A DNA stretch of 58,824 bases from Candidatus Woesearchaeota archaeon (lineage in GTDB: Archaea > Nanobdellota > Nanobdellia > Woesearchaeales > ARS49). Positions 2,135 through 45,196 of this stretch are shown piece by piece. The notes under the pieces were generated by a model. It searched no databases. It had not been told where the DNA came from and saw only the letters and a program-made list of their open reading frames with translations. Made by a program: the position numbers and the translations under genes. Location: positions 1 through 58,824 of the forward strand of contig JAFGHW010000017.1 in the NCBI GenBank assembly GCA_016929895.1. Direction: 5' to 3'. Position 1 is the first letter of the stretch. Each line of letters starts with the position of its first letter.

Positions 2135-4150
2135 ATGCCCAAAATAACAAAAATACGCAAAAGAGACGGTACAATTGAAATATTAAACACTGAAAAAATA
2201 AAAAAAATACTCGAAAGAATAATACCTGAATCAAAAAAGGGCAAAATAAAAAGAATAATCCAGGAAATCACAGAAACATTAGACAAATATTATTCAGAAG
2301 AGCTCTTGCCCTCAACACAAGATATAGAAGACCTTGTTCTTGACTTTCTTAAAAAAGAAAAAATACCATTAAAAAAATACTTAGAAGAAAAAACAAAACA
2401 AAAATATGGTTTTAAAGTAATACATGGAGTAAGAGATGACATTGGGTTATCTGCAAACGCAATCAAATTACTTGCGCGCAGGTATTTACTTAGAAATGAA
2501 CAAGGCAGAATTATAGAAACACCATCAAGAATGTTCAGAAGAATAGCAAAGGCAATATCTCTAGCCGAACGAAATTACAAAAAAGATATCCGCAAAGCAG
2601 AAGAACAATTTTATAATGTAATGTCAAAATTAGAATTTCTTCCAAACAGTCCAACATTAATGAACGCAGGAACAGAAATAGGACAGTTATCTGCATGTTT
2701 TGTTCTCCCAATAGAAGATTCATTAGACAGCATATTTGATACAATAAAATTAATGGCCAAAATACAACAAACAGGCGGAGGAACAGGATTTAATTTTAGC
2801 AAAATACGGCCGTTAGGGGATTTGATAACCACAACAAAGGGAATGGCATCAGGACCGCTGTCATTTATGCAAATATTCGACAAAGTAACTAACATCATAA
2901 AAAGAGGAGGAAAAAGGAGAGGGGCAAATATGGCAATACTTCGCTCAGACCATCCAGATATTGTTTCTTTTATCAAATCAAAAAAACAAGAAGAAAATCT
3001 TCTGAATTTCAACATATCAGTGGGAGTAACAGACGAATTCATGGATGCCGCAATCCAAAATGCTCCATACTGGTTGGTAAACCCAAGAACAGGAAAAAAA
3101 GTAAAAAAAGTAAGTGCAAAAATACTTTTAGAAATGATTTCTGAAACCGCCTGGAGAATAGGCGACCCAGGAATAGTATTTCTAGATGAAATCAACAAGC
3201 ACAATACATTGCCTAGCTTAGAAAAAATAGAAAGCACAAATCCATGCGGAGAACAACCATTACTTCCATATGAAAGCTGTAATTTAGGCTCAATAAACCT
3301 CATAAAAATGATTGAACAAGGAAGACTTAACTGGGACAAACTTAAAAAAACAGTGCAAATAGCAGTACATTTCTTAGACAATGTGATTGATGTAAACAAG
3401 TATCCATTGCGTGAAATAGAAGAAAAAACAAAACAAAACCGAAAAATAGGCCTTGGAATAATGGGATTTGCAGATGCCATTGCATTATTAGGAATTCCTT
3501 ATGATTCTGAAAAATCAATACAATTCGCAGAAAAATTAATGAAATTCATTACAGAAACCGCAAGGAAAAAATCAGAAGGGCTGGGAAAAGAAAGAGGAAA
3601 TTTCCCAAATTTTGAAAAAAGTATTTTCAACAAAAAATACAAAAACATGAGAAACGCAACATTAACAACAATTGCGCCAACAGGCAGTATTAGTATAATC
3701 GCAGGATGCTCTTCAGGAATAGAGCCCTTATTTGCGATAGCATATGTCCGTGAAATACTAGACAGCACAAAAATGGTAGAAATGAGCAAAACATTTGAGG
3801 ATATCGCAAAAAAGAAAGGCTTTTACAGCAAAAAACTGATGCTGCAAATAGCAAAAGAAGGAACGGTTTCTAAAAACAAAAAAATACCTTCAGATGTAAG
3901 AAAATTATTTACAACATCATTAGAAATAAAACCAGAATGGCACGTAAAGATTCAGTCGGCATTTCAAAAATACGTAGATAACGCAGTCAGCAAAACAGTC
4001 AATCTTCCAAATAATGCGGCATCAAAAGATATAGAAAAGATTTATAAATTAGCATACAAATTAAAGTGCAAAGGCATAACAGTTTACAGATACGGAAGCA
4101 AAGAAAAACAAATTTTATACCTCGGAAGCTGTCCTGCCAATGTTTGTTAA
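2135..4150 (+). CDS. nrdJ: Class II (adenosylcobalamin-dependent) ribonucleotide reductase
   Basis: A 671-residue enzyme that reduces ribonucleotides to deoxyribonucleotides using a thiyl radical made from adenosylcobalamin. An N-terminal ATP-cone (about 1-90) is followed by the ten-stranded barrel. All key residues are visible: Cys188 (SACFVLP) and Cys382 (ESCNLGS) as the redox pair, and Cys371 with Asn369 and Glu373 in NPCGE as the radical centre. The 11-residue spacing of Cys371 and Cys382 matches Thermotoga NrdJ. The C-terminal pair Cys666/Cys671 would re-reduce the active site. The chain is somewhat shorter than many NrdJ proteins but looks complete. It leads a three-gene cluster ending in the enzyme that makes its cofactor. 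Confidence 0.95.
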   Translation: MPKITKIRKRDGTIEILNTEKIKKILERIIPESKKGKIKRIIQEITETLDKYYSEELLPSTQDIEDLVLDFLKKEKIPLKKYLEEKTKQKYGFKVIHGVRDDIGLSANAIKLLARRYLLRNEQGRIIETPSRMFRRIAKAISLAERNYKKDIRKAEEQFYNVMSKLEFLPNSPTLMNAGTEIGQLSACFVLPIEDSLDSIFDTIKLMAKIQQTGGGTGFNFSKIRPLGDLITTTKGMASGPLSFMQIFDKVTNIIKRGGKRRGANMAILRSDHPDIVSFIKSKKQEENLLNFNISVGVTDEFMDAAIQNAPYWLVNPRTGKKVKKVSAKILLEMISETAWRIGDPGIVFLDEINKHNTLPSLEKIESTNPCGEQPLLPYESCNLGSINLIKMIEQGRLNWDKLKKTVQIAVHFLDNVIDVNKYPLREIEEKTKQNRKIGLGIMGFADAIALLGIPYDSEKSIQFAEKLMKFITETARKKSEGLGKERGNFPNFEKSIFNKKYKNMRNATLTTIAPTGSISIIAGCSSGIEPLFAIAYVREILDSTKMVEMSKTFEDIAKKKGFYSKKLMLQIAKEGTVSKNKKIPSDVRKLFTTSLEIKPEWHVKIQSAFQKYVDNAVSKTVNLPNNAASKDIEKIYKLAYKLKCKGITVYRYGSKEKQILYLGSCPANVC

Positions 4151-22065: not shown

Positions 22066-22087
22066 TTTTGTTCCTTTGTGGACATCA

Positions 22088-22176
22088 CGGGCCGGACGAG
22101 ATTCGAACTCGCGACCACTTGATGTCTCTTTTAGTAATTAAAAGTCAAGTGCTCTACCAGGCTGAGCTACCGGCCC
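22088..22176 (-). tRNA. tRNA-Lys (UUU) with a 15-nt intron
   Basis: Read on the minus strand, the gene folds as a cloverleaf: acceptor GGGCCGG with CCGGCCC, D stem GCTC with GAGC, anticodon stem CTTGA with TCAAG, T stem GCGAG with CTCGT (one G-T pair) and loop TTCGAAT. The anticodon loop is CTTTTAA with anticodon TTT once 15 bases (22124-22138) are removed after position 37. The discriminator is G and CCA is not encoded. It is the first gene of the RNA polymerase operon and must be cut out of that transcript if the two are co-transcribed. Confidence 0.93.
22124..22138 (-). other. tRNA-Lys intron at position 37/38
   Basis: Fifteen bases between A37 and A38, the canonical archaeal intron site. 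The intron's AAAAG can pair with CTTTT of the anticodon loop, putting the 5' cut in a seven-base loop and the 3' cut in a bulge. This is a relaxed bulge-helix-loop shape, not a full bulge-helix-bulge, and would suit a broad-specificity splicing endonuclease. The exact boundary could shift by one base because of adjacent A residues. Confidence 0.85.
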
Positions 22177-22290
22177 AATATTATAGTTTACACTATTGCT
22201 CGATATCAAATGTGAATGAAAGCAAATCATCTCCTCACGCAATTTGTTTTCCCCTCAACTAATACTGGTGATTAAGTACAGGACTAAAAA

Positions 22291-38814: not shown

Positions 38815-40005
38815 TTAAGACTTAAGAATTCTATTAACTTTATCAATTGCAGATTGAATACTCTTTTTGTCCTCTTTTAGTTCGTTCATATATGTTTCTG
38901 AAATGGCTTTAAACAGAACACTGAATTCAATTGCAGACAAAGGATTTTTTTTCTCTGCAAAAAACATTGCAGCATTATACGCAATATCCTGTGCTTTTTC
39001 AAGATGCTCTTGTCTTACCTCAGGTCTAAAGGTTTCATTACGGTAAATACCCAAATGAACATTCATTACTGCGGCAGGAACATGTTTGCTTAAACTTATA
39101 ATCAAAGGATGTCCGCCATTTTGCATAATCCAGCACATTGCCTGTTCTGAAATTCTTTCTACTTTAGCAAGATCTTCAAGTTCATACTCTCTGGGAAAAC
39201 TTACAAAAGGGTTGAGTTCGTCTAGCAATTCCTTAACTCTGCCGATCTTAAGCTCTGCTTCTAGTTCTGAAGGATTAATATTTGAATCCATTGAAATAAT
39301 TGCACTTGCAAAATCTTTCATATTTCCACCGTTAGAAAAATATCCTTGTTTTAAAGCATAAATTTGTCTGGCTTTTTTATTTGAGTCTAAATTTTCTTTA
39401 GCTTTTTGTCTCAGATTATCAAAATATCTTTTATCTTCAGGAGAAAGGTCTTTGGTTATGATTGTTTTTTCTTTTTTTCCAAACAATCTGCCGATAAAAC
39501 CGGGCTTGATAGTATCTTTTGTTGTATGAAGCTTGTCAAAATCAACTAAAACTTGCTGATATAATTCTGCAATACTGTTAACTTTATCATATTCGCCAAC
39601 TCCTGCAGATAATTCTGCTTTTTGCTTTAGTTTTTTGCAAAATTCATTTATTTCGCAATTAGAAATGTGTTCAGGATTAACTCTAAGCGACTCTTCTAAA
39701 GTTAAAGCATTATTCTCATGATTAAGTTTAGGTTCGCCTTCAGAAAGAATTATATGTTCAAAAATTGGAAACTTGTTAATAAGCTTGTTACGGATTTCTT
39801 GAGGACTTTTATTTTCATATGATTGACCATTATTTCCATTAAGCAATTTGCTCATGTGTATTAAAAATTCATCTCTGCCCAGTTCTGAATGACGCTCTTC
39901 TTCAGGATGCATACTTACAAAAGTCTTGTATCTATCAAGACATTCGGCACTATTAGAATCATACTTGAGCATTAGATATTCGAGTTTTCTTGTATCAATC
40001 GCCAT
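38815..40005 (-). CDS. Uncharacterised 396-residue helical protein with structured leader
   Basis: A soluble, mainly helical protein that I do not recognise. It has scattered Cys residues (for example CEINEFCKK near 120), a basic patch near 180-190 (GRLFGKKEKT) and a better-packed C-terminal half (about 260-396). No membrane segment or catalytic motif is seen. The frame stays open to a GTG at 40074, but the ATG at 40005 is preferred because the upstream 65 bases form a strong hairpin. A BRE/TATA promoter lies at 40112-40126. Confidence 0.65.
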   Translation of the reverse strand: MAIDTRKLEYLMLKYDSNSAECLDRYKTFVSMHPEEERHSELGRDEFLIHMSKLLNGNNGQSYENKSPQEIRNKLINKFPIFEHIILSEGEPKLNHENNALTLEESLRVNPEHISNCEINEFCKKLKQKAELSAGVGEYDKVNSIAELYQQVLVDFDKLHTTKDTIKPGFIGRLFGKKEKTIITKDLSPEDKRYFDNLRQKAKENLDSNKKARQIYALKQGYFSNGGNMKDFASAIISMDSNINPSELEAELKIGRVKELLDELNPFVSFPREYELEDLAKVERISEQAMCWIMQNGGHPLIISLSKHVPAAVMNVHLGIYRNETFRPEVRQEHLEKAQDIAYNAAMFFAEKKNPLSAIEFSVLFKAISETYMNELKEDKKSIQSAIDKVNRILKS

Positions 40006-40016
40006 TTTAGTGTACA

Positions 40017-40091
40017 GTAAGTAATAAGTCGTGCGGGCAATAGAAATCGGGTGTGGGGGGATTGCTATGCCCACTTACGACATATTATTAC
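40017..40091 (-). ncRNA. Candidate structured 5' leader or small RNA (75-nt hairpin)
   Basis: Segments pair in order: 40017-40020 with 40088-40091, 40022-40026 with 40083-40087, 40028-40032 (GTCGT) with 40077-40081 (ACGAC), 40035-40039 (GGGCA) with 40068-40072 (TGCCC), and 40041-40043 with 40065-40067, about 22 base pairs in all with small bulges and a C-rich loop on the minus strand. It is clearly more GC-rich than the surrounding DNA. The predicted transcription start of the minus-strand gene (near 40090) falls at its 5' edge and the ATG at 40005 about 12 bases past its 3' edge, so it would fill the whole leader. Confidence 0.5.
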
Positions 40092-40126
40092 CATCTGGTA
40101 GTAATTAAGAGTATTTAAAGCTTTCG
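40085..40126 (-). promoter_or_regulatory. BRE/TATA promoter and near-palindrome before the 396-residue gene
   Basis: On the minus strand TCGAAAG (40120-40126) precedes CTTTAAATAC (40111-40120), a BRE/TATA pair. A near-palindrome TTACCATCTGGTAGTAA (40088-40104) lies between TATA and the predicted start, where a repressor could act. Transcription should begin near 40090. Confidence 0.55.
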
Positions 40127-40169
40127 ATTTTTTAGTTACTGGATGGTGGTTATTTATTGCAGAATCAGA

Positions 40170-40715
40170 CTATTTCTCAGAAAAAACCATATACGCGCTT
40201 GCGTCATACATGAACTTCCATAAACCGGGGTTTAATGCCTTGAACATTAAATTGCTCTGCTTTTCTTCAAAAGTTTCTTCTGTTCCAGGCATGAACAAAC
40301 CAAACTCATTCCTCATTTTAGCATTATAATTAGTTTTAATTGCAGTGTTAAATTCTTTGGTCTGCTGAGAAACAATAACCTCTCTAAAATCATCTGATTT
40401 ATAGCTGATATCATAATAAGTGCTTAATTCAGTCGGAGAATCATCTCTCTGCCAATATTTTAAAACATTTGAATACGAAGTATGGAAATCTTCGTGGCGT
40501 GCTTGATAAGCATCTGAAAAATCCTGTCCTGTTTCTGTTATTTTTTTAGAAGAGCTGTCTTTTATAACTTCATCAATAGCATCCTTAATCTCTTTTTTAA
40601 TCTCCTCTGTTTCATCAGGCTCTGTTAAAGTAGCTATATTTATTTCTTCAATATCCTCTGGCTCAGTAGAATTATCAAATTCGTCTGGCTCTGTTATGTT
40701 AATCTCTTCTGACAT
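40170..40715 (-). CDS. Uncharacterised acidic protein (181 aa)
   Basis: The first ~65 residues are very acidic with repeated TEPDE/EEIN-type phrases (three related copies), probably disordered. The C-terminal part (about 75-181) is a compact Tyr/Phe-rich helical region ending SAYMVFSEK. No domain recognised. The ATG at 40715 lies about 28 bases after a minus-strand TATA element (GTTTAAAAA near 40740-40750), so a leaderless mRNA is likely; an upstream ATG at 40742 falls within that promoter and was rejected. Confidence 0.65.
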   Translation of the reverse strand: MSEEINITEPDEFDNSTEPEDIEEINIATLTEPDETEEIKKEIKDAIDEVIKDSSSKKITETGQDFSDAYQARHEDFHTSYSNVLKYWQRDDSPTELSTYYDISYKSDDFREVIVSQQTKEFNTAIKTNYNAKMRNEFGLFMPGTEETFEEKQSNLMFKALNPGLWKFMYDASAYMVFSEK

Positions 40716-40813
40716 CGTAACACAATGGTTTTTTTTCACCACTTTTTAAACTTTACTAATTGCAAAACCAGTTTTTTTAAAGTATATTTATTCATAGTGA
40801 CTATTAGACAATA

Positions 40814-43689: not shown

Positions 43690-45078
43690 TTATTCCTCGT
43701 CCAGAGGTCTTCTGAACAATACAATCAGCAGTACAATAACGATTACTGCCAATAGAACACTAATTCCTGCTAAAAGCCAGATATAAGCAGGGCTGTCCTT
43801 GAATGAAGAAGCACTTGAGCTTCTTACCCTGGCAGTAGTTGTTGCTCCAGTTGTTACAGGGACATCTGTAGTTGTGACAGTTGTTGTGTCTGTAGTTGTA
43901 TCAACAGCAGTTGTAGTGTCTTCTGCCACTTCACATTTCTCAACAACAAAATCAAACCTTTTAGTGTTACTCAAAGCAGTTGTATCAAACAAAGTGTTTA
44001 ACTCAACTGTGTAAACTCTGGATTCAGTTCCTTTGGGTATAGTAAATGTAAAGGAAATGCTTTCATCATCATCTTCATCAAGCTCGATATTTGACTTTTT
44101 TTCTTCTAAACCCAATTCTTCAATAGTTGCTCTAGCAACAACTTCTTCTTCATCTCGTTTGCCAAGATTAACCAGCCTGGCATCCAAGCTAATTCTTCTG
44201 TCCTGGCAATTATCAAACTGAACAGGACTTAATGAAGCAGACTTTATCTGGATATCATGCTTAAGTCTTTCAACTTCAAACTTGACTTCCCACATTTCAC
44301 CATGGTAAGCTCCATTTTCATCAACGCCATATACACGGATTTCAATAGGGTATTTTCCTTCCTCTGTATCTTCTTCAATCTCAAAATCAAAAGTCATCTC
44401 ATCCTTGTCATCTGCATCAAGACTTGTATCATCGTCTTCATCCAAGTCTAAATCACTATCCATGCTCTCGACCTCAACATATACTGGGTCAAATTCAACA
44501 TCGCCAATCCTTAAATCATCTCTGTCATTATCATTGAATAAATTTTCAAACTCAACTGTGATAGAACATGCCATATCAGGAGACAATTCCTCAAATTCTT
44601 CTTTGTCATCCAGTCTTTCTGATTTGTCGCCGCAAACAGCATTAATCTTTTTAATTTTTAACTGATTGACTGCCTGCATGTTTAAATCAGCAGTAGATTC
44701 AATAGAACCAGATACTGCTTTAACAGTTCCTGCCTTAAAGGGGGTTTGTTTTAAAAAATCAGAATCACCTGATTGCTTAACAACAGCATCAAATGAAACA
44801 GGAATATCGCCTGTAACAGTAACAGTCTGAACTGCTCCTGAAGCTAAGTCAAAAGTAGCAGGATCAAACCTCACATTATACCTGGAATCACCTGCAAAAG
44901 ACATCACAACATTAGATAATGCAGTTCCTCCATCATTAGTAACAGTAACTGTTGTTGAAACATTACTAACACGGTCCTGATCTGAATTGCCTATGGTCCC
45001 TACGCTTACTTGCAGAGCGCTAACTCCTGCAGCAAATAAAACAGCAAAAACCAATAGCATTATTATGGTTTTTTTCAT
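43690..45078 (-). CDS. Putative S-layer/surface glycoprotein
   Basis: A 462-residue membrane-anchored surface protein. A signal peptide (1-21) is followed by NEW3-like beta domains, a very acidic Asp/Glu stretch (about 205-240) that may bind calcium or other cations, a Thr/Ser-rich stalk (about 395-425) that is a good target for O-glycosylation, a membrane helix (about 434-456) and a short tail RRPLDEE. A GGGGGAGA Shine-Dalgarno sequence and a TATA box near 45126-45136 give a leader of about 30 bases. The layout is that of an abundant envelope protein, perhaps the main S-layer subunit. Confidence 0.75.
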   Translation of the reverse strand: MKKTIIMLLVFAVLFAAGVSALQVSVGTIGNSDQDRVSNVSTTVTVTNDGGTALSNVVMSFAGDSRYNVRFDPATFDLASGAVQTVTVTGDIPVSFDAVVKQSGDSDFLKQTPFKAGTVKAVSGSIESTADLNMQAVNQLKIKKINAVCGDKSERLDDKEEFEELSPDMACSITVEFENLFNDNDRDDLRIGDVEFDPVYVEVESMDSDLDLDEDDDTSLDADDKDEMTFDFEIEEDTEEGKYPIEIRVYGVDENGAYHGEMWEVKFEVERLKHDIQIKSASLSPVQFDNCQDRRISLDARLVNLGKRDEEEVVARATIEELGLEEKKSNIELDEDDDESISFTFTIPKGTESRVYTVELNTLFDTTALSNTKRFDFVVEKCEVAEDTTTAVDTTTDTTTVTTTDVPVTTGATTTARVRSSSASSFKDSPAYIWLLAGISVLLAVIVIVLLIVLFRRPLDEE

Positions 45079-45196
45079 ATTGAATCTCCCCCAATATCAT
45101 GTGTTATTAGTCTAGAGTAGTTACGTTATATATAAAGTTTTTGGTTTTATCTAGGTTGGAAACTATATTTTAGAAAATATAAGAAGAAAGAAAAAT

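Follow-up and report, generated by a model that had tools for sequence, protein, structure and literature searches.

The hairpin at 40017-40091, on the minus strand of the window (the whole 58,824-nt stretch of Candidatus Woesearchaeota DNA analysed here), very probably belongs to an RNA gene. By sequence comparison it represents a real, structured, single-copy small-RNA family that is absent from Rfam release 15 and occurs in part of one archaeal order, where its carriers are tiny archaea, at least 13 in number and most of them uncultured. We found this RNA described nowhere in the literature searched. A conserved structure, motif and promoter box, an independent gene context and a spread at the level of the order were all observed, and the RNA is probably free-standing and regulatory rather than the leader of the adjoining gene. 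The relevant features of the window are these:

40017-40091, minus strand: hairpin of the putative sRNA (the transcript probably runs from about 40089 to about 40015), assigned from its MFE, its z-score and 13 homologues with a covarying stem
40042-40063, minus strand: apical motif AAUCCCCCCACACCCGAUUUCU, with a C6 run in the loop, conserved in 13 members
40088-40104, minus strand: downstream dyad TTACTACCAGATGGTAA, which spans the expected start site and may serve as operator or initiator element
40112-40126, minus strand: BRE/TATA promoter core CGAAAGCTTTAAATA, assigned from sequence and from a TATA-like box in 13 of 13 members
40136-40149, minus strand: upstream dyad CCACCATCCAGTAA, beyond the BRE as seen from the hairpin, its position conserved in most members
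38815-40005, minus strand: orphan 396-aa ORF, starting 12 nt past the hairpin, with no Pfam match
40170-40742, minus strand: 190-aa ORF upstream of the RNA, a syntenic neighbour in G001, G002 and probably G018

The minus strand of 40017-40091 folds into one long hairpin with an MFE of -25.8 kcal/mol. The hairpin of the original prediction is real, and this fold has 28 pairs against the 22 or so counted there. Dinucleotide-preserving shuffles of the interval averaged -9.7 (z -6.85), with none of the 200 as stable, and the plus strand gave a weaker fold signal (z -3.6). Across the members of the family, single-sequence fold z-scores ran from -1.5 to -5.7, mostly at or below -3. Since the hairpin is conserved in relatives, its signal is not a product of chance.

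Searching 353 genomes of the window's order with covariance models recovered 13 members in five families, each carrier genome having a single accepted copy:

family f1: G000, G001, G002, G017, G018, G021
family f40: G202; family f43: G207, G208, G209, G210; family f55: G226; family f86: G345

The first covariance model, built on three genus copies, gave weak matches, several of them with a common apical motif, and the rebuilt models R2 and then R3 brought the family to its present size. The G001 hairpin is nearly identical to that of the window. The last member scored an E-value of 3.8e-4 and the next match 0.014. Weak model matches with neither promoter nor stem were dropped (the second match in G002, G338, G206, G209 C21, G301, G207 C49, G007, G310, G230, G282, G231, G237, G143, G291, G311 and others), and a few more were excluded by score alone, e.g. 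G017 C1, G208 C126 and G207 C75. A strict pattern, ATCCCCCCACA-N0-8-GATTTC, was present in 7 of the 353 genomes and its reversed control in none; it had no match in about 170 genomes from other orders of the class. In the neighbouring order (103 genomes), two weak matches were the only ones found, both without the architecture of the members. Viral contigs held no exact match to the long motif. The 17 viral matches to a short pattern were rejected, as none combined stem, UUUCU and TATA and their number is at chance level for so large a collection. One IMG/VR viral contig carries the pattern at 3526-3543 inside a very strong GGGGCCCCA hairpin, which we attribute to chance, as the 3' UCU and the promoter are absent.

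Against Rfam, the window interval had no match at gathering score, nor up to an E-value of 10, and the 12 homologous loci had none up to 0.5; weak matches of the interval to eukaryotic microRNA families lay far under the cut-offs of those families and were set aside. A C/D box guide RNA finds no footing either, as boxes C (RUGAUGA) and D (CUGA) are absent from 40017-40091 and Rfam returned no match. Elsewhere in the window, a tRNA-Lys(ttt) at 22087-22177 on the minus strand spans about 91 bases against a 71-position tRNA model, and may hold an intron.

The outer stem is paired in all 13 members but differs in sequence between clades, with 34 double-sided changes. In a core alignment of seven members, both sides change in 8 of 8 outer-stem pairs and 98.8% of cells are paired; with 11 members, covariation scores 0.627, a value that none of 500 shuffles reached (their score is 0.196) and that is lost when the register is slid. 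All of these counts lean toward structure because the alignment was built by hand, with small insertions omitted and N padding used to keep register. G-U pairs make up 17 of the 282 pairs in the stems. We also asked, with an unedited and register-free flank swap of the 26 nt on either side of the motif, whether a 5' arm prefers its own 3' arm. Own arms paired at a mean of -17.5 kcal/mol and arms of different clades at -8.5, and with eight clade representatives the native pairing was matched by 3 of 40,000 permutations, a set that includes the identity. The best cross pairing came near to or above own pairing for G202, for G345 and for the group with a common CCCAGG stem (the f43 members and G226), so that the signal of this comparison rests on the contrast between clades. 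Compensatory changes, whose absence the original prediction had named as counting against it, are abundant in the homologues and support an RNA element. In the f40, f43 and f55 members, a second short hairpin adjoins the main one on its 5' side, again with differing sequence and retained pairing.

The apical part of the hairpin behaves differently. The motif AUCCCCC(C)...UUUCU is nearly invariant, AUCCCCC and UUUCT being found in 13 of 13 members, and the loop between them differs in length by single bases. A protein-coding explanation was rejected, as the resulting motif lengths of 19-23 nt hold no reading frame. The C5-6 run sits in the apical loop in all 13 predicted folds. The three innermost pairs show hardly any covariation and are partly lost in f43, where the sequence is retained, which argues that the apical part is held for its sequence.

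We propose that a stand-alone RNA of about 70-100 nt would be transcribed from the BRE/TATA at 40112-40126, beginning at the foot of the hairpin, and would end in most relatives at the U-tract just past it. The long stem might need only to pair, its role being to present a fixed motif with a single-stranded C5-6 run. As its most likely action, this C-rich loop would pair in trans with G-runs in mRNA leaders, chiefly G-rich ribosome-binding sites, and the pairing might alter how a few genes are translated. The dyads around the TATA box may time production of the RNA. That the RNA acts in trans through its C-run on mRNA leaders is, to our reading of the sequences, about as likely as not, with protein binding as the main rival. 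The leader of the gene at 43690-45078 (minus strand; a probable exported protein) is a suggestive candidate target: it reads UUGGGGGAGAUU at 45079-45100, a G-run ribosome-binding site, and is kept as UUGGGGGGAGAUU (G6) in the G001 orthologue, whose protein is 73% identical. A G-rich ribosome-binding site can also be retained there for its own sake. The perfect complement GTGGGGGGAT of the G000-type loop does not occur in the three genus genomes besides the RNA gene itself, GGGGG ribosome-binding sites were equally common in sampled genomes with and without the RNA, and the duplexes predicted between loop and window leaders were no better than those of shuffled loops. These results speak neither for nor against antisense targeting.

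The lack of target enrichment in these tests would also fit a stand-alone RNA that works by binding protein, as a titrating decoy or RNP scaffold, with AUCCCCC...UUUCU serving as a protein recognition site and not as an antisense seed. We regard this as a genuine possibility, if one that falls short of being probable. Sequence is kept in the closing pairs and in the unpaired 3' UCU while the outer stem drifts freely, and the f43 members lose inner pairs yet keep the C-run and UUUCU; such conservation of loop-adjacent paired bases and of the UCU exceeds the needs of simple antisense pairing, and protein binding accounts for the fixed sequence beside the loop equally well. However, no candidate protein co-occurs nearby across the families, and an exposed homopolymeric C-run is equally typical of antisense C-rich sRNAs.

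A U-tract follows the hairpin on its 3' side in G017, G018, G021, G207, G208, G209, G210 and G226, and a weaker one in G345; in G202, a T-run accompanies a separate inverted repeat downstream, and no U-tract follows the hairpin in the window's genus. The next gene downstream is convergent, on the opposite strand, in G001, G018, G208, G209 and G226, and differs elsewhere. Taken together, the convergent downstream genes and the U-tracts give the layout of a stand-alone RNA gene and suggest that the RNA is its own transcription unit. In G001, the downstream ORF appears protein phosphatase-like (a name given from reading its sequence), and the presence of the hairpin beside a different gene makes it independent of the orphan gene. 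In G208, G209, G210 and G226, a related ORF of 356-359 aa lies downstream of the RNA and on the other strand, a conserved neighbour in f43 and f55. Upstream, the 190-aa protein has relatives in two Woesearchaeota records, those of G002 and G001; its synteny in G018 was judged by inspecting the C-terminus.

The original prediction had offered two branches, a cis-acting leader and an independent small RNA. The latter fits 13 of 13 members, and a general role as leader finds no support, as the orphan gene follows the hairpin only in the window and in G002. The sole relative of the 396-aa ORF among 36 relatives searched is that of G002 (32% identity), which the RNA likewise precedes, and the ORF looks like a lineage-restricted gene lying behind the RNA gene. 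Nor is there a constant downstream gene or class of gene, such as would mark a riboswitch or cis leader: what lies downstream changes from carrier to carrier or is convergent. The hairpin does fill the space between promoter and ATG in the window and G002, where the ORF begins 12-20 nt downstream with no U-tract between; this suggests that part of the transcription there reads into the orphan gene, in which case the RNA would double as its leader. As an account of the hairpin itself, however, a cis-acting leader of the 396-aa gene, whether riboswitch, thermosensor or protein-binding, is very unlikely, given that most carriers lack that gene, that opposite-strand genes come next in the five genomes named above and that the hairpin ends in U-tracts in most of the other carriers.

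The promoter gives further support to a free-standing RNA. The original prediction placed a BRE/TATA at 40112-40126 and an ATG at 40005, and both are found there, the former reading CGAAAGC-TTTAAATA. A TATA-like box lies 53-69 nt 5' of the motif in all 13 members, with a CGAAA-type BRE usual and the weakest box in G021; the TATA spacing would put the first transcribed base near 40089, where the hairpin has its foot. The near-palindrome at 40088-40104 is likewise present, and its position is kept as TYACT-N4-AGTRA in most members. A similar dyad, of the form YCACT-N4-AGTRA, stands 5' of the BRE, again in most members. The notion of a private DNA-level switch did not hold, and the dyads were rejected as an operator peculiar to the RNA gene, since the same dyads occur at unrelated promoters. 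Of 12 carriers, 11 have the upstream-type dyad with a TATA box, for the most part at promoters other than that of the RNA gene; a reversed control gave no match, and the genes behind these other promoters are diverse. The downstream-type dyad also occurs elsewhere (nine matches in G345; one control match, in G017). ACT-N4-AGT dyads flank the TATA box of the RNA gene and, per genome, those of a few unrelated genes. They look like a promoter class or regulon of the order, or a shared promoter-operator element. That the hairpin itself is a DNA-level element (a palindromic protein site, recombination site or cruciform) and not RNA is highly improbable: the other strand also folds stably in several members and dyads adjoin the hairpin, but it keeps a same-strand direction with a TATA box at a fixed distance on one side and a U-tract on the other, its stems include G-U pairs and differ wholly between clades, a divergence that a DNA-binding protein would not accept, and it is present in a single copy per genome with no mobile-element features seen.

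A single-copy RNA whose invariant loop is kept across several families of small genomes is probably useful to its carriers, and the motif and covariance profile will ease searches in metatranscriptomes. To our knowledge, little sRNA biology has been described in DPANN archaea beyond guide RNAs. The broadest reading of our data is an order-wide DPANN sRNA family that acts in trans via its fixed C5-6 loop, has its own conserved double-dyad promoter, governs mRNAs with G-rich leaders, e.g. those of exported or surface proteins, and is a convergent archaeal counterpart of bacterial C-rich-loop sRNAs; as a whole, we hold this reading to be doubtful and put it forward tentatively.

Free-standing intergenic sRNAs have precedents in archaea: Haloferax sRNA132 and s479 are intergenic, act in trans and have regulatory effects (PMC6560208, PMC8155600). 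They belong to a distant lineage, and the likeness noted here is in the type of RNA. Closer in appearance is the 6C RNA of Actinobacteria, an Rfam family with three helices and two C-rich hairpin loops, in which about six C stand in a row (PMC6582537). In contrast, the archaeal RNA matches no Rfam family and has one C-rich loop, with a UUUCU motif on its 3' side; each member has one C-run, and none lies in the extra 5' hairpin of f40, f43 and f55. In Staphylococcus, pairing of C-rich stretches with ribosome-binding sites has been proposed or demonstrated for sRNAs with C-rich regions, e.g. IsrR (PMC11257911). Those RNAs are bacterial, with several C-rich regions each and known targets, whereas the archaeal RNA comes from mostly uncultured organisms and has candidate targets at most. 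If its loop does target G-rich leaders, it would constitute a case of C-rich-loop regulation outside bacteria.
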